Positions 13,598-59,743 of a stretch of 64,000 nucleotides of DNA are shown here, piece after piece. The DNA is taken from contig OMVJ01000001.1 of assembly GCA_900314495.1 (NCBI GenBank), forward strand, positions 124,001-188,000, in the 5' to 3' direction. Made by a program: the position numbers and the translations under genes. The notes beneath the pieces were generated by a model. The model was not told the origin of the DNA. It saw only the letters and a list, made by a program, of their open reading frames with translations, and ran no database searches. How positions within the stretch are numbered: the first letter of the stretch is position 1; each line of letters starts with the position of its first letter. The DNA is from an uncultured Olsenella sp. (lineage in GTDB: Bacteria; Actinomycetota; Coriobacteriia; Coriobacteriales; Atopobiaceae).

Positions 13598-13627
13598 TGA
13601 GGCAAAAGGGAAACGTCCCCTGTCTCA
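13598..13627. repeat. Palindromic repeat family P3, half copy at the ilvA 3' end
   Basis: AAAAGGGAAACGTCCCC followed by TGTCTCA. One arm of the P3 family (full copy at 14889-14950). It overlaps the ilvA stop codon. Confidence 0.6.
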
Positions 13628-14821
13628 TTCGACGAGGCTGAAGCCGGCGGCGGCCAGGCGGGCGCGGATGTCGTCGATCTGCGCCTGGTCGCGCGTCTCC
13701 ATGCCCATGCGCAGCACGCAGCTGCTGATGGGAAGGTTGGGGTCAGAGAGGTCGTAGTCCACGCTCACCACGTTGGCGCCGGCCGCGGCAATGAGGCCGC
13801 TCACCTGCTCCAGCTGGCCGGGCTTGTCGGTCAGGCGGATGCTCATGGTGGTCTTGCGGCCGCTCATGGCCAGGCCGCGGGTGATCACGCGCGAAAGGAT
13901 GTTCACGTCGATGTTGCCGCCGCTGACCACGCACACCGTGCGCCTGCCCTCCAGCGGGATCTTGCCGAACATGCAGGCAGCCACGGGTGCCGCGCCCGCC
14001 CCCTCGGCCACCAGCTTCTGGCGCTCCATCAGGGCCAGGATTGCCGCGGCGATCTCGTCGTCCGAGACGGTCACCACATCGTCCACGTAGCGCTCCACCA
14101 TCTTGAAGGTCTCCTCGCCGGGCGTCTTGACGGCGATGCCGTCGGCGAAGGTGCTCACGCGGTCCAGCGCCTCCCACTGGCCGTCGTGGAATGCGCGCGC
14201 CATGCTGCCCGCGCCCTCGGCCTGCACGCCGTACACCTTGCACGAGGGTTTCAGGCTCTTGACGGCCAGCGCCACGCCGGAGATGAGCCCGCCGCCGCCG
14301 ACCGGCACAACCACGGAGTCCACGTTGTCCAGTTGGTCCAGGATCTCAAGCCCGATGGTTCCCTGGCCGGCCATCACGTCCTCGTCGTCGTAGGGGTGGA
14401 TGAGGGTGGCACCCGACTCCTCTTGGTAGGCCACGCAGGCGTCGTGCGCGTCGTCGTAGCTGCCCTTCACCAGGCACACCTCCGCGCCCAGCCGGCGGGT
14501 GTTCTCCACCTTCATGATAGGCGCGCCGTCCGGCATGAAGATCTTGCTCTTGGCGCCTGCGCGGGTGGCGGCCAGGGCCACGCCCTGCGCGTGGTTGCCC
14601 GCGCTGCAGGCAATGATGCCGCGGTCCAGCTCCTCCTGCGCGAGCCGGCTGATCTTGTAGTAGGCGCCACGCAGCTTGAACGAGCCCGTGACCTGCAGGT
14701 TCTCCGTCTTGAGGTGAATGTCCGCGCCAGGCACCAGCTGCGGGGCGGCAATGAGGTCCGTGCGACGGGCCACCCCCTTCAGCACGTAGGCAGCGTGGTA
14801 TACCCTGTCCAAGCTAAGCAT
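13625..14821 (-). CDS. ilvA: Threonine ammonia-lyase with ACT domain
   Basis: A 398-residue PLP enzyme that converts threonine to 2-oxobutanoate, the first step towards isoleucine. The PLP lysine is in TGSFKLRGAYYK (Lys49), the phosphate-binding glycine loop is VPVGGGGLISG, and residues about 325-398 form an ACT domain (SIRLTDKPGQLEQVSGLI) for feedback control. I chose ATG 14821, preceded by GGGAGAGG; a longer in-frame extension runs into a palindromic repeat and is not coding. The length matches the short ACT-containing form. It lies near, but not in one operon with, ilvDCNB. Confidence 0.9.
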   Translation of the reverse strand: MLSLDRVYHAAYVLKGVARRTDLIAAPQLVPGADIHLKTENLQVTGSFKLRGAYYKISRLAQEELDRGIIACSAGNHAQGVALAATRAGAKSKIFMPDGAPIMKVENTRRLGAEVCLVKGSYDDAHDACVAYQEESGATLIHPYDDEDVMAGQGTIGLEILDQLDNVDSVVVPVGGGGLISGVALAVKSLKPSCKVYGVQAEGAGSMARAFHDGQWEALDRVSTFADGIAVKTPGEETFKMVERYVDDVVTVSDDEIAAAILALMERQKLVAEGAGAAPVAACMFGKIPLEGRRTVCVVSGGNIDVNILSRVITRGLAMSGRKTTMSIRLTDKPGQLEQVSGLIAAAGANVVSVDYDLSDPNLPISSCVLRMGMETRDQAQIDDIRARLAAAGFSLVE

Positions 14822-14888
14822 GTTGACAATCCTCTCCCTAGGCGGCCGCGTGCGCGACCGTCGGCGTTTCCTGTGGTTGTTGTTGATG

Positions 14889-14950
14889 AGACGGGGGGAC
14901 GTACCTTTTGTCTCATTTGAATGAGACAAAAGGTACGTCCCCCCGTCTCC
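14889..14950. repeat. Palindromic repeat family P3, full copy
   Basis: A perfect 30-bp inverted repeat (14889-14918 and 14921-14950) with a 2-bp centre. It begins GAGACGGGGGGACGTACC and reaches TTTTGTCTCATT. It separates the DUF815 gene from ilvA and could stop transcription in both directions. Degenerate or partial relatives are at 13598, 27005, 27425, 28183 and 35138. Confidence 0.85.
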
Positions 14951-14954
14951 TGTT

Positions 14955-16349
14955 TCACTCCCCGGCCAGGTAGTCGATGAACTGGCGAGCCGTGCGGCCG
15001 CTCATGCCGCCGTGGCGAATCTCCCACCGGTCAGCCAGCTTGAGCAGCTCCGCCTCGTCTGGGAACCTGCCCGGCAGCTCGCGCGCGGCCAGCTCCAGCA
15101 CGATCTGGTGGTAGAGCTTGGGCGCCGGCGTGCTGAAGTTGATGGAGACGCCGAAGCGCTCGGCCAGGCTGAGCTTCTCCTCCACCGTGTCGCTGCGGTG
15201 CACGTCGCCGTCGTGCTCAATGTCGTTTCGGTCGTTCCAAGTCTCACGGATGAGGTGACGGCGGTTGCTGGTGGCGTAAATGAGCACGTTCTCTGGCCGC
15301 TGCTCCACGCCGCCTTCGATTACGGCCTTCAGGAACTTGTACTCCACCTCGTTCTCCTCGAAGGAGAGGTCGTCTATGAAGACGATGAAGCGGTAGTTGC
15401 GGTGCTTCACGGCCTCGATCACGCGGCTGAGGTCGCGGAACTGGTACTTGTATATCTCTATGATGCGCAGGCCGGCGTCCGCGTACTCCGTGAGCAGGGC
15501 CTTCACGCAGGTGGACTTGCCGGTGCCCGCGTCACCGTAGAGCAGCACGTTGTTGGCCGGACGGCCCGCGAGGAAGGCCTGGGTGTTGGCCACCAGGCGC
15601 TCCTTCTGCAGGTCATAGCCCACGATGTCTTGCAGGCGTACAGGGCGCGCGTTGTTGACGGGCACGAACTGCAGCGTGCCCACAGAGTAGGCCTCCGGCG
15701 TGTAGGCGTCGCGCAGGAGGGCGTCCTCCGTGCGGCGGATGCGGAAGGCGGCATTGAGGCCGAAGAGCCCCACGCCCAGGCGACGGTATGCGTCGCTGAC
15801 CAGGGCAAATGCGTGCGCGGGCGCATCCGGGCCACCGTCTGCCGCGCATGCAGCCAGGGCGTCCGAGAGCGAACGGACCTCCCGGCTCACGCCCTCAAAG
15901 TAGTTTGCACGCTGCTTGGGGATGGACTTCCAGTTGCACAGGGACTCAAATGCCGGCGCGCCCAGGTCCGTGGAGAGGTCCGAGAAGTCCCAGCGCAGCA
16001 GCTCCAGGAACACGGACAAGTCCGCCCGTGCCAGCGCGTTGACGCTGCCGCCATCCACGGCACCGCGCCGCTCCGCCGTGAGCGAGAAGGAATTCTCGTC
16101 CGTGAGCAGGCAGAAGGCCAGGTAGTCGGCCCAGAGGTCGCGGTCGAAGCCGTACGTGGTGGCAAGGTCCAGGAGGCGCTTGGCCGCGGCGTTGGCACGC
16201 GCAGCCAGGTCGCAACGAACGTCGCGCGGCAGGTCACCGGCGGGGTCCCGCCGCGCGGCAAGGTCGCGGTAAACGCCAGCCACGTCCGCCAGCACCGAGT
16301 CATCCGCTAGATTGCGATACAGAACCAGGCTGGAGAGCAAGCTGTACAT
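14955..16349 (-). CDS. DUF815 family AAA ATPase
   Basis: A 464-residue protein with the DUF815 C-terminal ATPase module. Walker A is YGDAGTGKST (about 270-279), Walker B is FIVFIDDLSF (about 319-328), and a sensor segment IYATSNRRHLI follows. The N-terminal half is helical and family-specific. DUF815 proteins are soluble P-loop ATPases of unknown role, found in many Firmicutes and actinobacteria. ATG 16349 opens the frame, though the region just upstream has no strong binding site. It ends 5 bp before a perfect palindrome. The position between ilv genes may be accidental. Confidence 0.85.
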   Translation of the reverse strand: MYSLLSSLVLYRNLADDSVLADVAGVYRDLAARRDPAGDLPRDVRCDLAARANAAAKRLLDLATTYGFDRDLWADYLAFCLLTDENSFSLTAERRGAVDGGSVNALARADLSVFLELLRWDFSDLSTDLGAPAFESLCNWKSIPKQRANYFEGVSREVRSLSDALAACAADGGPDAPAHAFALVSDAYRRLGVGLFGLNAAFRIRRTEDALLRDAYTPEAYSVGTLQFVPVNNARPVRLQDIVGYDLQKERLVANTQAFLAGRPANNVLLYGDAGTGKSTCVKALLTEYADAGLRIIEIYKYQFRDLSRVIEAVKHRNYRFIVFIDDLSFEENEVEYKFLKAVIEGGVEQRPENVLIYATSNRRHLIRETWNDRNDIEHDGDVHRSDTVEEKLSLAERFGVSINFSTPAPKLYHQIVLELAARELPGRFPDEAELLKLADRWEIRHGGMSGRTARQFIDYLAGE

Positions 16350-16496: not shown

Positions 16497-18161
16497 TTAA
16501 GCCTGAAGGATGGCGCCCTTGTCCGCGGAGGACACCAGCTTGGCGTAGCGGGCCAGGTAGCCCGTGGTCACCTTGGGCGCGGGCCCAACCCAGGCGGCGC
16601 GGCGGCGCTCAAGCTCCTCGTCGCTCACCAGCAGCTGGATGCTGCACTCCGGAATGTTGATGCGGATTCGGTCGCCCTCCTCCACCAGTGCGATGGTGCC
16701 ACCGGCCGCGGCCTCGGGGCTCACATGTCCCACGGAGGCGCCGCGCGTGGCGCCAGAGAAGCGGCCGTCCGTGATCAGCGCCACGGAGTCTCCCAGGCCC
16801 ATGCCCACGATGGCGGACGTGGGGTTGAGCATCTCGCGCATACCGGGGCCGCCCTTGGGGCCCTCGTAGCGGATGACCACCACGTCGCCCTCCACGATGC
16901 GCCGGTTGTAAATGGCGTCGATGGCGTCCTCCTCGGAGTCAAAGACGCGTGCGGGCCCCTCGTGTACCATCATGGCCTCGCTCACCGCGGCGCGCTTGAC
17001 CACGCAGCCGTCGGGCGCCAGGTTGCCCTTGAGCACCGCGATGCCTCCCTTGGGCGAGAACGGGGCATCCAGCGGGCGAATGACCTCCGGGTTGCGGTTG
17101 ACGTGGCCCACCAGGTTCTGAGCCATGGTCTGGCCCGTCACGGTCATGACGGAGGTGTCCAGCAGGCCCGCCTGGTCCAGCTCGTTCATGACGGCGTAGA
17201 CGCCGCCGGCCTGGTCAAGGTCCTCGATGAAGGCGTTGCCAGCGGGTGCCAGGTGGCAGAGGTTGGGCGTGTGGTCAGAAATCTCGTTGGCGAAGTCAAG
17301 CGAGAGCGTGACGCCGGCCTCGTGCGCGATGGCGGGCAGGTGGAGCATGGTGTTGGTGGAACCGCCCAGGGCCATGTCCACGGTCTCCGCGTTGTGGAAG
17401 GCGGCCGCCGTCAGGATGCTGGAGGGGCGAATGTCCTGCTCAACCAGCTTCATTACCTGCATGCCAGCCTTCTTGGCCAGGCGCAGGCGCGCGGAATAGG
17501 GCGCGGGAATGGTGCCGTTGCCGGCAAGGGCCATACCCAGGGCCTCCGTCAGGCAGTTCATGGTGTTGGCGGTATACATGCCAGAGCAGGAACCGCAGGA
17601 GGGGCAGGCGTTCTCCTCGTAGTCGCGCACGCCCTCCTCGTCCAGCTTGCCGGCCTGGTAGGCGCCCACGGCCTCGAACATGTGGGAAAGGCAGCTGCGG
17701 CGACCGTCGCGCAAATGACCCGCCAGCATGGGGCCGCCGGACACGAAGATGGTCGGCACGTCAATGCGGGCGGCAGCCATGAGGAGGCCGGGCACGTTCT
17801 TGTCGCAGTTGGGAATCATGACCAGGCCGTCGAACTGGTGGGCGATAGCCATGCACTCCGTGGAGTCCGCGATGAGGTCGCGCGTGACCAGGGAGTACTT
17901 CATGCCCACGTGGCCCATGGCAATGCCGTCGCACACGGCGATGGCCGGGAACTTCAGCGGCACGCCGCCGGCCAGGCGCACGCCGGCCTTCACGGCCTCT
18001 GCCACCTTGTCGATGTTCATGTGGCCGGGAACGACCTCGTTGTAGGAGCTCACCACGCCGATGATCGGGCGGTCCATCTCCTCCTCCGTCAGGCCCAGCG
18101 CGTACAGGAGGCTGCGGTTGGGAGCGCGGCCCACGCCCTTCTTAATCTGGTCAGAGCGCAT
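16497..18161 (-). CDS. ilvD: Dihydroxy-acid dehydratase
   Basis: A 554-residue iron-sulfur enzyme that dehydrates 2,3-dihydroxy-isovalerate and its methyl analogue in valine, leucine and isoleucine synthesis. Cluster cysteines are in PNCDKN (Cys119) and CPSCGSCSG (Cys186, 189, 192). The position that holds a third cysteine in oxygen-stable [2Fe-2S] enzymes reads SYNEVVPGH here, as in the [4Fe-4S] type, which fits an anaerobe (inference). C-terminal substrate and Mg residues are in RIEGD-like and GRFSGATRG segments. ATG 18161 follows AAAGGGGGAGC. It is the last gene of the ilvB-N-C-D series, 73 bp after ilvC. Confidence 0.93.
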
Positions 18162-18234: not shown

Positions 18235-19254
18235 CTAGTTGGACGCGGTGTCCAGGTCGGTGTCGTTCTTCCAGAGCATGGACTCGCGGAGCTGCTTGCC
18301 CACGACCTCGGCGGGGTGCTGGGCCAGCTGCTCGTGCTTGGAGTTGAAGAAGGTGCGGCCGTTCTTGTTCTCCGCAATCCAGCGGCCGGCGAAGGAGCCG
18401 TCCTGGATGTCGGAGAGAACCGCGCGCATGCGGGCCTTGGTCTCCTCGTGGGGCAGGACGCGCGGGCCAGACACGTACTCACCGTACTCGGCGGTGTCGG
18501 AGCAGGAGTAGTTCATGGCCGCGATGCCGCCCTTGTTGATGAGGTCCACGATGAGCTTCATCTCGTGGATGCACTCGAAGTAGGCGTTCTCGGGCTCGTA
18601 GCCGGCCTCGGTCAGCACCTCGAAGCCGCACTTCATGAGCTCCACCAGGCCACCCATGAGCACGCACTGCTCGCCGAAGAGGTCGGTCTCGGTCTCGTCG
18701 TGCATGGTGGTCTCCATGATGCCCGCGCGGGCGCCGCCGATGCCGGCGATGTAAGCCAGGGCCACGTCCTTGCACTGGCCGGTGGCGTCCTGCTCCACGG
18801 CCACCAGGCAGGGCACGCCGCGGCCGTTCACGAACTGGGAGCGCACGGTGTGACCCGGGCCCTTGGGGGCGGCCATGAAGACGTCGCAGTCCTCGGGCAC
18901 GACGACCTGCTTGTAGCGGATGTTGAAGCCGTGGGCGAAGGCGACGGCGTTGCCGGCCTCCAGGTGCGGGGCGATGTGCTCCTTGTACACCTGGGCGGCC
19001 ACCTCGTCGTTGACCAGGATCATGATGATGTCTGCCCACTCGGCGGCCTCATCGATGGTCTTGACGGTCAGGCCATGGCCCTCGGCCTCGGCGGCGTGCT
19101 TGGAGCCCGCGCGCAGGCCCACGCACACGTCGCAGCCAGAGTCCTTCAGGTTCAGCGCGTGGGCGTGGCCCTGGGAGCCGTAGCCGATGATGGCAATCTT
19201 CTTGCCGTCCAGCTTCGAGAGGTCACAATCCTGCTCATAGTACATTTTTGCCAT
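18235..19254 (-). CDS. ilvC: Ketol-acid reductoisomerase
   Basis: A 339-residue class I enzyme that rearranges and reduces acetolactate with NAD(P)H. The dinucleotide loop is [10 protein letters not shown] (residues 24-33). The catalytic region includes [14 protein letters not shown] and the C-terminal metal-binding helices with [10 protein letters not shown] and [15 protein letters not shown] 19254 lies behind GAGGAGAG. The start overlaps the end of ilvN by 20 bp, so translation is probably coupled. The high local GC codon use matches its neighbours. Confidence 0.93.
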
Positions 19255-19789
19255 AGTCGAACTCTCCTCTTTCCTTTGTCTGCTCGTATATAGTCCTGGT
19301 ACCACGCTCAATCGCCACCATGCCGGTGCGGACCAGCTCCAGGATGCCGAACTCGCTCACAAGGTCAACGATGGCATCCGTCTTGCTCTCCTCGCCGATG
19401 AGGGTCAGCGTGATTGTGGTAGAGGATACGTCTATGACCGACGCGCGGAATATGTTCGCGATCTGGATCACGCGGTTGCAGATCTCGCTGGTCTCGGTCT
19501 TCACCTTGATGAGAACCAGCTCGCGCCGGATGGAGTGGTCTGGGTCCAGCAGCTTCACGGAGTGAACCGCAAGCAGCTTGCGCAGCTGGTTGCCCAGGAG
19601 GTTGATCTGGTCGTCGTCCGCCATGACCTCGATGGTGATGCGGCTGACCGCCGGGTCGTCGGTGGTGCCCACGGCAAGGGACTCGATGTTGTAGCCCTTG
19701 CGCGAGAACATGCGCGAGACCTGGCTCAGCACGCCCGCCTCGTTGTCTACCAGCACGGAGAGCGTGCGGCGTCCGTATGTTGCGTCCAT
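19235..19789 (-). CDS. ilvN: Acetolactate synthase, small regulatory subunit
   Basis: A 184-residue regulatory subunit. The N-terminal ACT domain is [31 protein letters not shown], followed by the second regulatory domain with [11 protein letters not shown]. It binds valine and tunes the catalytic subunit IlvB. I prefer ATG 19789, which has GGGGG 7 bp upstream; an in-frame ATG at 19795 is too close to that site. It begins 13 bp after the ilvB stop and overlaps ilvC. Confidence 0.9.
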
Positions 19790-19801
19790 CTGCATGCCCC
19801 C

Positions 19802-21508
19802 TTACACTGCCAGGAAGTCGGTGATGTGGTTGCCGCCAGAGACCATGGGGCGAACCATCTCGTCCTTGTCGATCACGCAGTCAATGACGTAGCCGTGGCC
19901 GCAGGCCAGGGCCTCCGTCAGGGCGGCCTCCAGCTCCTCCACGGTGCTGACGCGGCTGCCGCCCAGGCCGTAGGCCTCCGCCAGCTTCACCCAGTCTGGC
20001 GGACGGTCCAGCGTGGTGGCCGAGTAGCGCTGGCCGTAGATGAGCGTCTGCCACTGGCGCACCATGCCCAAGGTCTGGTTGTCGTACACGAAGGTGATGA
20101 TGGGCAGGCCGTAGTGCTCCTCCGTGGCGAGCTCATTGCAGTTCATGCGGAAGGAGCCGTCACCCGTCACGTGGATGACGCGCTTGCCGGGGTTGCCCAC
20201 CTGCGCGCCAATGGCCGCGCCCAGGCCAAAGCCCATGGTGCCGAAGCCGCCGGACGTGACCAGCTGGCCCGGGTAGTCGTAGTGGAAGTGCTGGGCCACC
20301 CACATCTGGTGCTGGCCCACGTCCGTGGTGACGATGGTGTTGGAGGGGCACAGGCGGGCGATGACCTCGCTGATCTGCTTGGGGGTAAGGTGGTCGCCGC
20401 CCTCGTCGTACTCAGTCTCCGTCGGGAACGAGAAGACGTACTTCTTCCACTCCTCGTGGTGCAGAGGCTGCACGCGCTCGTTCAAGAGCTGCAGCACTCG
20501 GCGGGCGTCGCCGATGATGTGGTGGGTGGTCTTGACGTTCTTGTTGATCTCCGACCGGTCCACGTCCACCTGCACGATGGCCGCCTGCTTGGCAAAGGTG
20601 GAGGGCTTGAGGGCCACGCGGTCGCTGAAGCGGCAGCCGAAGGCGACCAGCAGGTCGCAGTTGTCCACCGCCATATTGGACGCCTGGGAGCCGTGCATGC
20701 CGATCATGCCCGTCGTCAGCGGGTCTCGGCCGCGGAAGCCGCCGGCACCCATGAGGGTGATGGCCACGGGCGCGTCCACCAGGTTGGCGAAGTAGTTGAA
20801 CTCCTCGTGCGCGCGGCTGCGCACCACGCCGCCGCCGCACACCAAGAGGGGCCGCTCCGCCGCCTGCAGCATCTCCACCAGAATGTCCACGTCAGACTCG
20901 TCGACCTCTGGCACGCGCAGGCCGCCCTCGCGGCCCTCTTCCAGCGCAGACAGCCTGCCGTGGCGGCGATGCTCGGAAACGGGCAGGTAGGAATAGCTGT
21001 ACTTCTGCCTGGCCACGTTCTTGGCAATGTCGATGAGCACGGGGCCGGGCCTACCGGTGCGCGCAACGAGGAAGGCCTCGCGCACAACGTCCGCCAGCTC
21101 CGACACGTTGCGCACCATGTAGTTCCACTTGGTGATGGGCATGGTGATGCCCGTGATGTCCACCTCCTGGAACGAGTCCTTGCCCAGCAGGTTCTCGCTC
21201 ACGTTGCAGGTTATGGCCACCACTGGCGAGCTGTCCATGTACGCCGTGGCAATGCCCGTAACCAGATTCGTGCAGCCCGGGCCAGACGTGGCAAAGCACA
21301 CGCCCACCTTGCCGGTGGAGCGCGCGTAGCCGTCGGCCGCGTGCGCGGCGCCCTGCTCGTGACTCACCAGGTAGTGGTTGATCTCCGGCGTTTGGCCCAG
21401 CGTGTCGTACACATCCAGAATGGTGCCGCCCGGGTAGCCGAAGATGGTGTCCACCCCCTGCTCCTTCAGGCATTCCATGAGGATTTGTGCGCCTGTGAGC
21501 TCCACGTG
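19802..21508 (-). CDS. ilvB: Acetolactate synthase, large catalytic subunit
   Basis: A 568-residue ThDP- and FAD-dependent enzyme that condenses pyruvate (or pyruvate with 2-oxobutanoate). The catalytic Glu is in SHEQGAAHAADGYAR (Glu50), the ThDP-Mg motif is GDGSFRMNCNELAT (about 447-460), and the substrate region GPGCTNLVTG is conserved. The start is GTG 21508, with AAAGGAGG at 7-bp spacing; upstream Met codons overlap the leader region. It is the first structural gene of ilvBNCD and is preceded by a leader peptide and terminator, so amino-acid-controlled attenuation is likely. Confidence 0.92.
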   Translation of the reverse strand, partial: HVELTGAQILMECLKEQGVDTIFGYPGGTILDVYDTLGQTPEINHYLVSHEQGAAHAADGYARSTGKVGVCFATSGPGCTNLVTGIATAYMDSSPVVAITCNVSENLLGKDSFQEVDITGITMPITKWNYMVRNVSELADVVREAFLVARTGRPGPVLIDIAKNVARQKYSYSYLPVSEHRRHGRLSALEEGREGGLRVPEVDESDVDILVEMLQAAERPLLVCGGGVVRSRAHEEFNYFANLVDAPVAITLMGAGGFRGRDPLTTGMIGMHGSQASNMAVDNCDLLVAFGCRFSDRVALKPSTFAKQAAIVQVDVDRSEINKNVKTTHHIIGDARRVLQLLNERVQPLHHEEWKKYVFSFPTETEYDEGGDHLTPKQISEVIARLCPSNTIVTTDVGQHQMWVAQHFHYDYPGQLVTSGGFGTMGFGLGAAIGAQVGNPGKRVIHVTGDGSFRMNCNELATEEHYGLPIITFVYDNQTLGMVRQWQTLIYGQRYSATTLDRPPDWVKLAEAYGLGGSRVSTVEELEAALTEALACGHGYVIDCVIDKDEMVRPMVSGGNHITDFLAV

Positions 21509-21583
21509 CTGCCTCCTTTCGGTCTTGATGTTGTACATCCCTGTTCGCTTGGTTCCGAAGCCGGTCACCCGGCGATTTTCGGC

Positions 21584-21620
21584 AAAAAAAATACGAGCCC
21601 CACCTAGCGTGGAAACTCGT
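21584..21620 (-). terminator. Attenuator terminator before ilvB
   Basis: On the minus strand the arms ACGAGTTTCCAC and GTGGGGCTCGT (21620-21593) pair with two G-U pairs, followed by A then eight T (21591-21584). It lies between the leader peptide and the ilvB start and is a textbook intrinsic terminator. Confidence 0.8.
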
Positions 21621-21659
21621 GAAGCTGCAACCCCCCGTTGTGAAGAACGAGCGGCGCAG

Positions 21660-21728
21660 CTAGCTAATAATTAGGACGACGAGGGAGGCACGGATATCAG
21701 CCGAAACGGTGCAGATGCCCTGTGCCAT
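21660..21728 (-). CDS. Leader peptide of the ilvB operon (22 residues)
   Basis: ATG 21728 with GGGGGAGGC upstream; the stop TAG is at 21660. The 22-residue peptide starts MAQGICTVS and ends SLVVLIIS, so nine residues are Ile, Val or Leu, six of them in an unbroken row just before the final Ser. Ribosome stalling on these codons when branched-chain tRNAs are uncharged would free the ilvB genes from the terminator 40 nt downstream. A TACACT (21776-21771) about 45 nt upstream could be the -10 box; the -35 is unclear. No annotation pipeline would call this gene on length. Confidence 0.8.
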   Translation of the reverse strand: MAQGICTVSADIRASLVVLIIS

Positions 21729-21950
21729 GATTGCCTCCCCCTTGGTCGTCACTCGTGTTTGTTGTGGTGCAGTGTAGCAGCGCCACCGTTAGCAACCGCA
21801 CACTTGTGCCCGTACGTAACATTACTGACACACAACGGCAATATTGCCGGCCCGACGGGCCCAAAAGGACGATCTGCACCCAGATAGACGATTCCTTTGG
21901 GCTCGTCTGCGGCGCATCGAGGATCTATTGCGAGCTTGGTACTTTGCGGT

Positions 21951-22040
21951 CGCGGAAAAATTGACAACTTTGAGGCATGCGATTTTCAAAAGCCCAGCTC
22001 ACAAAAACAGGGATACCTCGGATTTGTCAATTTTTTCGCG
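21951..22040. repeat. Palindromic element family P2, stem type C
   Basis: Arms CGCGGAAAAATTGACAA (21951-21967) and TTGTCAATTTTTTCGCG (22024-22040). The interior has AACTTT and then CAAAAGCCCAGCT (21987-21999), the central P2 motif. The right arm ends in a T-run. It lies between the ilvB promoter region and the chbG-like gene; the rest of 21780-22159 shows nothing else. Confidence 0.7.
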
Positions 22041-22159
22041 ATGGTCGAGTACCACAGCATCTCGCAAGCCTTGGAGGCACGCTTGCAGAACTCGAAACAC
22101 CGTCGGATGCGACGCCCGGGCCGCCGCCATAGCGCGGCCGCCCGGGCGAGAAGGACCCG

Positions 22160-35303: not shown

Positions 35304-36671
35304 ATGAAGATTATCGTGGCCGGAGACGGCAAGGTCGGGTCCATGGTGGCAGGTCAACTCTCGGGCGAGGGGCACGAGCTCACCCTCATAGACAAGGACC
35401 CCGCGGCCCTGCAGCCCACCATCGAGCACTACGATGTCATGTCGCTTGCAGGAAACTGCGCTTCCATGGAGGTCCTCCGCAATGCCGGCGTGGAGGAGGC
35501 GGACCTGCTCATCGCTGCAACGGGCGTGGACGAGGTCAACCTCCTGTGCTGCCTGACGGCGCACGGCATGAACCCCAACCTGCACACCATCGCCCGAATC
35601 CGCAGGCCGGAGTACTCAGAGACCCTCTATGCCCTGCGCAAGCAGTTCGCCCTCTCCCTCGTCGTCAACCCGGAGCGTCAGACCGCCAAGGAGATAAACC
35701 GCCTGCTGCGCTACCCCGCCTTCCTCAAGCGCGAGGAGTTCGCCAACGGCACCGTGGAGCTCATCGAGCTGCGCATTGACGAGGAGTCACCCATCTGCAA
35801 CCAACCGCTGAGCAAGCTGAGCAAGATCCTCCGGTGCCGCATGCTGGTCTGCTGCGTGGTCCGCGACGGCCAGTCCTTCACACCCTCTGGCAGCTTCGTG
35901 CTGCGCAGCGGCGACCGCATCTACGCCACCGCAACGGCCGCGACCATTACCCAGCTGCTCAAGTCCCTGCACATCCAGACGCCTAGGATGCGCTCCGTCA
36001 CCATCTGCGGCGGCGGGAGCATCTGCGACTACCTGGCGGACCTCCTCATTAAGGAGGGCGTCTACGTCAAGATCATCGAGAAGGACCGCGAGCGCTGCGA
36101 GGCGCTGGCGGACAGGCACCCCGAGGCCTTCGTCGTGTGCGGCGACCTCTCCAGTCAGGACGTCCTGGAACGCGAGCGCGTGGTGGACTGCGACGCCTTC
36201 GTCACCGCCACCGGCAACGACGAGCTGGACGTTCTTCTCTCCATCTACGCCAACAGCTGCAAGGTACCACAGGTGATCACCAAGTTGGGCCGCGCCGAGA
36301 ACCTGTCACTCATCAGCCAGCTGCCCGTGGGCAGAATCGTGAGCCCCAAGGAGCTGTGCAGCAGGACCATCGCCCGCTACGTGCGCGCCATGTCCAACGG
36401 CGTGGACGTAGCCTCCGCCGTGACCATACACTTCATTGCGGGCGGCCAGGCGGAGGCCATCGAGTTCGTGGTTGACACCGCCACTCGCTACTGCGGCGTG
36501 CCGCTGAAGGACATTCCCCTGAAGAAGAACGTGCTCATAGCATCAATCTCGCACGACCGGACAAGCGAAATCCCCGCCGGCAACTCCATGTACCACGTGG
36601 GGGACCACCTGGTCATCGTGACGGCATCCGACAAGGTCGTGCAGCAGCTGAACGATATCTTCGAGAGGTAG
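35304..36671 (+). CDS. trkA: Trk potassium uptake regulatory protein TrkA
   Basis: A 455-residue NAD-binding peripheral subunit that gates the TrkH channel. Two RCK modules are seen: the first begins MKIIVAGDGKVGSMVA with the dinucleotide Gly motif and ends with a TrkA-C region (VELIELRIDEESPICNQPL); the second begins SVTICGGGSICDYLADLL and ends with ASISHDRTSEIPAGNSMY. ATG 35304 follows GAGGAAAG. trkH follows 67 bp later. Confidence 0.92.
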   Translation: MKIIVAGDGKVGSMVAGQLSGEGHELTLIDKDPAALQPTIEHYDVMSLAGNCASMEVLRNAGVEEADLLIAATGVDEVNLLCCLTAHGMNPNLHTIARIRRPEYSETLYALRKQFALSLVVNPERQTAKEINRLLRYPAFLKREEFANGTVELIELRIDEESPICNQPLSKLSKILRCRMLVCCVVRDGQSFTPSGSFVLRSGDRIYATATAATITQLLKSLHIQTPRMRSVTICGGGSICDYLADLLIKEGVYVKIIEKDRERCEALADRHPEAFVVCGDLSSQDVLERERVVDCDAFVTATGNDELDVLLSIYANSCKVPQVITKLGRAENLSLISQLPVGRIVSPKELCSRTIARYVRAMSNGVDVASAVTIHFIAGGQAEAIEFVVDTATRYCGVPLKDIPLKKNVLIASISHDRTSEIPAGNSMYHVGDHLVIVTASDKVVQQLNDIFER

Positions 36672-44661: not shown

Positions 44662-44736
44662 TGGCTCCCCGGGCAGGGTTCGAACCTGCGACAGGCTGAT
44701 TAACAGTCAGCTGCGCTACCACTGCGCCACCGGGGA
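44662..44736 (-). tRNA. tRNA-Asn (GTT), left copy
   Basis: 75 nt including an encoded CCA. The acceptor TCCCCGG pairs with CCGGGGA, the anticodon loop is CTGTTAA (anticodon GTT), and the T loop is TTCGAAC. It is identical to the copy at 45784-45858 but on the other strand. Confidence 0.95.
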
Positions 44737-45783: not shown

Positions 45784-45858
45784 TCCCCGGTGGCGCAGTG
45801 GTAGCGCAGCTGACTGTTAATCAGCCTGTCGCAGGTTCGAACCCTGCCCGGGGAGCCA
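45784..45858 (+). tRNA. tRNA-Asn (GTT), right copy
   Basis: Identical 75-nt copy of the left gene, on the plus strand; anticodon GTT, CCA encoded. Confidence 0.95.
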
Positions 45859-59570: not shown

Positions 59571-59633
59571 TGCGTGCCTCCCAAGCATCGTGCGCAGCCC
59601 GGCGCCCATGCGCCGCCACGCGGTTGCGGTGAT

Positions 59634-59673
59634 GCGCCGTCTTTTCCTGCCTGGTACGGCTGCCCTCGTCAGG
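59634..59673 (-). promoter_or_regulatory. Guanidine-III riboswitch
   Basis: On the minus strand the 40-nt segment reads CCTGACGAGGGCAGCCGTACC, broken here, then AGGCAGGAAAAGACGGCGC. It matches, base for base at most conserved positions, the known guanidine-III (ykkC-III) aptamer: GACGAGG, GCCGUACC, CAGGAnAAGACGGCGC, with GCCGU pairing with ACGGC in the pseudoknot. It lies 64 bp upstream of the sugE start, near the translation region, consistent with translational control. Confidence 0.85.
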
Positions 59674-59743
59674 GTCCTGCGACGCGGAAATGATAGCAGA
59701 GCCCATAGCAAAGTCCACGTCCCTACCCTGCAAGTTGGGGTAG

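Follow-up and report, generated by a model that had tools for sequence, protein, structure and literature searches.

A 64,000-nucleotide stretch of DNA from an uncultured Olsenella sp. (Atopobiaceae), hereinafter the window, encodes an operon for branched-chain amino acid biosynthesis that is preceded by a short open reading frame (ORF) and a predicted terminator. This locus raises the question of whether the leader region senses the supply of Ile, Leu and Val and, if so, how it acts on the terminator. The preliminary description of the region, made from the sequence alone, answered both parts of the question with leader-peptide attenuation of ilvBNCD in a classic layout. The relevant features are as follows.

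21734..21739, minus strand: Shine-Dalgarno sequence GGGAGG of the leader ORF, read from the sequence (a Shine-Dalgarno match is present in 9/9 homologous leaders)
21660..21728, minus strand: leader ORF MAQGICTVSADIRASLVVLIIS, read from the sequence (homologous leaders in eight relatives)
21666..21683, minus strand: predicted regulatory codon run CTC GTC GTC CTA ATT ATT, from the sequence and codon counts
21623..21661, minus strand: hairpin 1, AGCUGC...GCAGCU, with the stem starting from the A/G of the TAG stop, from folding (conserved in 9/9)
21584..21620, minus strand: intrinsic terminator, from folding, with the stem at 21620-21593 followed by A and T8 (21591-21584)
19802..21505, minus strand: ilvB, acetolactate synthase large subunit, the first structural gene, with a probable GTG start (alignment, NCBIfam)
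19235..19795, minus strand: ilvN, acetolactate synthase small subunit (NCBIfam)
18235..19311 (ORF as listed), minus strand: ilvC, ketol-acid reductoisomerase (NCBIfam)
16497..18161, minus strand: ilvD, dihydroxy-acid dehydratase (NCBIfam)
14955-16349, between ilvD and ilvA: AAA-type ATPase-like gene, recognized by eye
13625..14929, minus strand: ilvA, threonine ammonia-lyase (NCBIfam; same order in L185 and L186)

The operon of the window thus runs ilvB-ilvN-ilvC-ilvD, followed by the AAA ATPase gene and ilvA. NCBIfam profiles confirm the large (TIGR00118) and small subunits of acetolactate synthase, ilvC, ilvD and ilvA (TIGR01127), and give no match for the AAA-like gene. The ilvB gene begins at about 21505, behind AAAGGAGG, and alignment with the ATG codons of the relatives indicates that its start is most likely the GTG at 21505; the true start of ilvC is probably located downstream of 19311. 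ilvA and the AAA-like gene probably belong to one transcription unit with ilvBNCD. The order ilvB-ilvN-ilvC-ilvD-AAA-ilvA recurs in two relatives (L185 and L186). In six others, the leader element precedes ilvB-ilvA (L187) or ilvB-ilvA-ilvD (L188-L192, where ilvC is located upstream), so that ilvBNCD, the target originally named, is the right designation for the window, L185 and L186 and not for these six.

The leader itself is as first described, down to the coordinates of the frame (ATG at 21728, stop TAG at 21662-21660): 22 codons plus TAG that begin with ATG GCA CAG and end with ATT ATT AGC TAG, a row of six Val/Leu/Ile codons near the end (codons 16-21, L V V L I I), a ribosome-binding site of its own and an intrinsic terminator before ilvB. 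The run includes CTA, a rare Leu codon that accounts for 21 of the 1399 Leu codons (1.5%) counted over 37 picked window genes. With both strands considered, the 64-kb window contains one short ORF that combines a Shine-Dalgarno site with a run of at least six I/L/V codons ending no more than three codons from the stop, and 30 shuffled versions of the window (first-order Markov) contain none; such a run is not expected by chance. The idea that TAG was specially selected as the leader stop is weak because TAG is already the commonest stop codon in the picked genes of the window (23/43) and of the relatives (28/39).

The IlvB protein of the window was used to search 150 related genomes, of which 115 yielded a match, and the region upstream of ilvB was examined wherever identity reached 70% or more, which gave 24 loci (L001-L024, including the window's own copy). 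The element is present at nine of these loci, namely L001 (the window), L002, L003, L004, L005, L019, L020, L021 and L023. The homologous leaders span about 21-30 codons, start in all nine cases with an ATG behind a Shine-Dalgarno match, and end with the tails LVVLIIS, GVIVLIK, LVVVLIIS, LSIITII, LGILAII, EILIII, EILAII, EILAII and VEILIES, each followed by TAG. Within the aligned leader tails, length differences are multiples of three, and all nine ends are rich in Ile, Leu and Val; CTA lies inside the codon run in seven of the nine leaders, as judged by eye. A terminator with a U-tail (T run) is located between the leader and ilvB at all nine loci. Loss of the frame or of the codon run in close relatives had been named in advance as the observation that would speak against attenuation; both are kept, with eight relatives retaining the in-frame leader, the Shine-Dalgarno sequence, the Ile/Leu/Val-rich tail, the TAG and the terminator directly before ilvB. 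Among the other loci, ilvC lies immediately upstream of ilvB at eight (L008, L009, L011, L012, L013, L015, L016 and L017), and neither ilvC nor a recognized leader does so at L006, L007, L010, L014, L018, L022 and L024; at L022, ilvB is preceded by leuA.

Folding revealed a second hairpin, at 21661-21623, that was absent from the preliminary description and that starts inside the stop codon of the leader. In all nine sequences this hairpin 1 starts at the G of the TAG codon, and in the window the A of TAG is paired as well; its 3' end is separated by 2-7 nt from the terminator stem, so that the two hairpins do not overlap. Folding energies are -14.4 kcal/mol (z -2.7) for the terminator region (21591-21630) and -36.9 kcal/mol (z -5.6) for the region with both hairpins (21591-21662), values that none of 200 shuffles equals in either case. 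Two hairpins, each with 11 pairs, emerge when the alignment of the nine elements is folded; of the 198 cells in these two stems (hairpin 1 and terminator), 95.5% are paired, compared with 45.5-58.7% in slid-partner controls. Only two pairs are changed on both sides across the nine-sequence alignment; covariation is thin and by itself weak, and the case accordingly rests on register and conservation. An ATG downstream of the G run in the 3' arm of hairpin 1, seen by eye in five of the nine sequences and missing from the window, was dropped as a candidate feature.

Upstream of the window leader, a sigma-70 promoter scan gave no passing candidate. A TGTTACG-like string, possibly an operator or part of a promoter, recurs upstream of the leader in L001, L002, L019-L021 and L023 and reads TTTGTTACGA in L019-L021 and L023. 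A palindromic element with 42-nt arms that are 76% complementary is located at 21937-22054, upstream of the ilv leader; because similar copies are found at four other sites of the same genome (contigs C57, C35 and, twice, C29), it is probably a small dispersed MITE-like repeat.

Covariance model searches gave E <= 2.4e-13 for 7 of 140 family genomes and strong scores for 8 members of a 396-genome sample of the class; the strongly scoring genomes are nine different ones and belong to family f1 (genera g1, g6 and g31) and family f3 (genus g45). Because the model was built from the same nine sequences, these searches indicate that no further close copy was detected, and not that the model generalizes. 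The element is single-copy in its own genome, where the next best match has an E-value of 1.1. All nine strong matches adjoin ilvB, and none of the ten weaker matches examined (L118-L123, L136, L137, L143 and L144, a set that excludes L124-L135 with E above 0.06 and L138-L140 with E above 1) is near a branched-chain gene. When mapped on an IlvB tree with 38 proteins, the distribution of the element requires two state changes, compared with a mean of 8.2 for shuffled labels. The nine element-bearing IlvB proteins and eight without the element form one well-supported larger clade, and the element-less clade of eight comprises exactly those encoded with ilvC directly upstream of ilvB. A leuA-led operon is directly observed in seven of these eight (leuA-ilvC-ilvB in L153; leuA-ilvB'-ilvN-ilvC-ilvB in L145, L146, L149, L150, L152 and L154), and the eighth, L148, ends at a contig edge. 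This pattern is consistent with a single gain and a single loss of the element, with the loss placed where ilvB follows ilvC in leuA-led operons.

This conservation bears on one alternative, namely that the terminator is constitutive and partial and the small ORF is accidental or non-regulatory. Such an arrangement appears very unlikely: the codon run exceeds chance expectation in the Markov shuffles, and the frame, the run, the rare Leu codon and the register of the hairpin with the stop codon are all kept across two divergent IlvB clades. Known RNA sensors do not account for the locus either: the T-box model (RF00230) has no match in the window at the gathering score and none at 21480-22000 with E-values up to 10, no other Rfam element is found at the ilvB leader locus, and the 33 operon stretches of relatives contain no T-boxes. 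Elsewhere in the window, a Guanidine-III riboswitch is detected on the minus strand at 59631-59693, just above the gathering score, and two tRNA-Asn(gtt) genes, at 44662-44736 (minus) and 45784-45858 (plus), lie in opposite directions about 1 kb apart. Among other loci, L034, a Ruminiclostridium relative of the window IlvB, has a leader of its own, MNVYFAELNNVAVSIIGVLLSVDVVVVP, upstream of ilvB, and L042, from an uncultured Flavonifractor, has a T-box in the place of a leader, which indicates that the same IlvB gene lineage carries different sensors.

Control could also be exerted on translation, with the leader tail pairing with the Shine-Dalgarno region of ilvB in the manner of the LEU element that precedes leuA. 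In L019, L020 and L023 this duplex is indeed matched in strength by only 4, 7 and 3 of 300 shuffles, respectively, but 73 of 300 shuffles match it in the window and 76 to 291 of 300 in the five other sequences, and a terminator sits between the leader and ilvB at all nine loci. We regard translational control as highly improbable and did not adopt this pairing, which is inconsistent across the nine loci. In the LEU element as presented in excerpts of PMC1262725, the Leu codon run pairs with the Shine-Dalgarno sequence of the structural gene, whereas the window duplex is no better than shuffles. Leaders with Leu-rich tails and a TAG stop do occur upstream of leuA itself, in L149, L152, L153, L154, L199 and L198 (the last in the genome of the window, G000:C21, with leuA at 35355); they share the stop-region motif CTAG..TAGGCG followed by GGCC.AAGGG, in a variant form in the window's own genome. 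Pairing between their Leu codons CTCCTCCTA and the Shine-Dalgarno sequence of leuA would be possible, in line with the LEU element in those excerpts (PMC1262725), and the leaders of L149 and L152-L154 have no Rfam match.

Taken together, the anatomy, the conservation, the siting exclusively at ilvB and the fit to the tree all agree, making ribosome-mediated attenuation the best reading: the region is very probably a ribosome-mediated transcription attenuator of the branched-chain amino acid operon. The sensing part of the leader and the terminator are well supported, and the coupling between them we infer. Counted from the first base of the A-site codon, the leading edge of a ribosome lies about 12 nt downstream. 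With this geometry, hairpin 1 stays mostly or entirely free while a ribosome waits in the conserved codons, and a ribosome at the stop codon covers the 5' arm of the hairpin; when the covered parts are removed, the nine sequences fold into hairpin 1 and the terminator for the stalled ribosome, and into the terminator without the full hairpin 1 for the ribosome at the stop. With ample charged Ile, Leu and Val tRNAs, the ribosome would reach the stop codon with its leading edge over the 5' arm of hairpin 1, and transcription would end at the terminator before ilvB. Under shortage of these amino acids, the ribosome would wait in the codon run, a few codons short of the stop, leaving hairpin 1 free to form, and more polymerases would read through, either via hairpin 1 or via a transient structure that uses its strands. 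In this scheme, hairpin 1 would have to weaken a terminator with which it does not overlap.

It is at this step that the term "classic" finds no support. The minimum free energy (MFE) folds contain the terminator in all nine sequences at every modelled ribosome position, and the ribosome-free leader has an alternative MFE fold only in the window and L023. Folding had been suggested as a way to find an antiterminator, and RNAalifold applied to the nine transcripts without the 3' arm of the terminator gives hairpin 1 only, with nothing substantial emerging when the 5' arm of hairpin 1 is masked as well. Constrained folds, shuffles and the consensus fold lead us to reject, on current evidence, a classical 2:3 antiterminator that excludes the terminator. 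Attenuation as such is well supported by anatomy and by conservation of the element at all nine loci, the window included.

A mutually exclusive antiterminator of the classical kind might nevertheless have been missed by thermodynamic folding, a possibility to which we give appreciable but minority credence and which would be a finer version of the attenuation reading rather than its opposite. One candidate is a transient helix between the G-rich 3' strand of hairpin 1 and the pyrimidine-rich arm of the terminator; pairing of that strand with the 5' arm of the terminator averages 0.41, below the 0.48 of shuffles (234 of 300 are as high), and the consensus fold shows neither this helix nor the second candidate, in which the base of hairpin 1 is extended into the first bases of the terminator, comparable to the overlap of a few bases in Corynebacterium glutamicum in excerpts of PMC11857589. 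Such an extension into the terminator arm can be drawn in L004, L005 and L023, but the codons it uses would themselves lie under a stalled ribosome. Between the leader tail and the 5' arm of the terminator, pairing is slightly above shuffles (0.57 compared with 0.46, with 17 of 300 as high), a marginal statistic that spans nine related and hence non-independent sequences, but when the last 12 nt of each sequence are shuffled, 17 to 194 of 200 shuffles are as high, which is not significant, and this pairing was not adopted. Alternatively, the attenuator may have no antiterminator at all: a hairpin nucleated at the leader stop would open as the ribosome terminates there and close while it waits in the control codons, and would alter the efficiency of the terminator kinetically or through polymerase pausing rather than by exclusive pairing. 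We consider this rather unlikely as a specific proposal.

In the trp, leu and ilv attenuators of Escherichia coli, the control codons are located near the end of the leader, a terminator precedes the first gene, and strands 1:2, 2:3 and 3:4 compete; the leu leader carries rare CUA Leu codons. The element described here is similar in the late control codons, the rare CUA and the terminator, and differs in that 2:3 pairing was not found. Closer parallels come from Actinobacteria, here compared through excerpts of the cited papers. The ilvBNC leader of C. glutamicum and the ilvB-II element combine, ahead of ilvB, an Ile/Leu/Val leader peptide with an upstream hairpin and a terminator that has a U-tail (PMC11857589, PMC10272879), all of which, along with the branched-chain operon, are shared with the Olsenella element. 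In those systems, P1/H1 extends over most of the upstream ORF (uORF), and some bases belong to both antiterminator and terminator (PMC10272879, PMC11857589), whereas here the first hairpin has its start at the stop codon and leaves 2-7 nt between its end and the terminator. A P1 stem spanning most of the uORF as in ilvB-II is absent, the sole conserved upstream stem being the one that starts at the stop codon, and the window element has no Rfam family match. The ilvB1 leader of Mycobacterium tuberculosis has a uORF with LVVI codons, a terminator, and a ribosome at the stop codon that is proposed to mask the antiterminator (PMC13236596); the I/L/V uORF, the terminator and the role of the stop-codon ribosome are shared, whereas a mutually exclusive antiterminator is predicted there and none was found here.

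Seliverstov et al. (2005, PMC1262725) predicted leaders with Ile, Leu and Val codons and terminators upstream of the ilvB genes of Corynebacterium, Mycobacterium and Streptomyces, and remarked that changing codons in S. coelicolor was without effect. In those leaders, unlike the present one, the codon runs overlap the terminator hairpins. We recognized no member of Coriobacteriia in the species list as excerpted from PMC1262725, and the excerpts of PMC2965389 and PMC9413887 name no such ilv element for this class; no description of a branched-chain leader attenuator in the lineage was found in the literature covered, which lies mostly outside subscription journals. The element belongs with the ilvB leader attenuators already known from Corynebacterium, Mycobacterium and Streptomyces; its peculiarity is the anchoring of a hairpin at the stop codon.

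The nine divergent natural sequences provide material for testing the missing step of the switch. Should hairpin 1 indeed act with no antiterminator, the textbook need for two mutually exclusive structures would have to be widened. For the lineage, in which no such system was found described, this analysis adds a conserved, unannotated branched-chain leader attenuator, which would explain the probable matching of ilvBNCD to the amino-acid supply.
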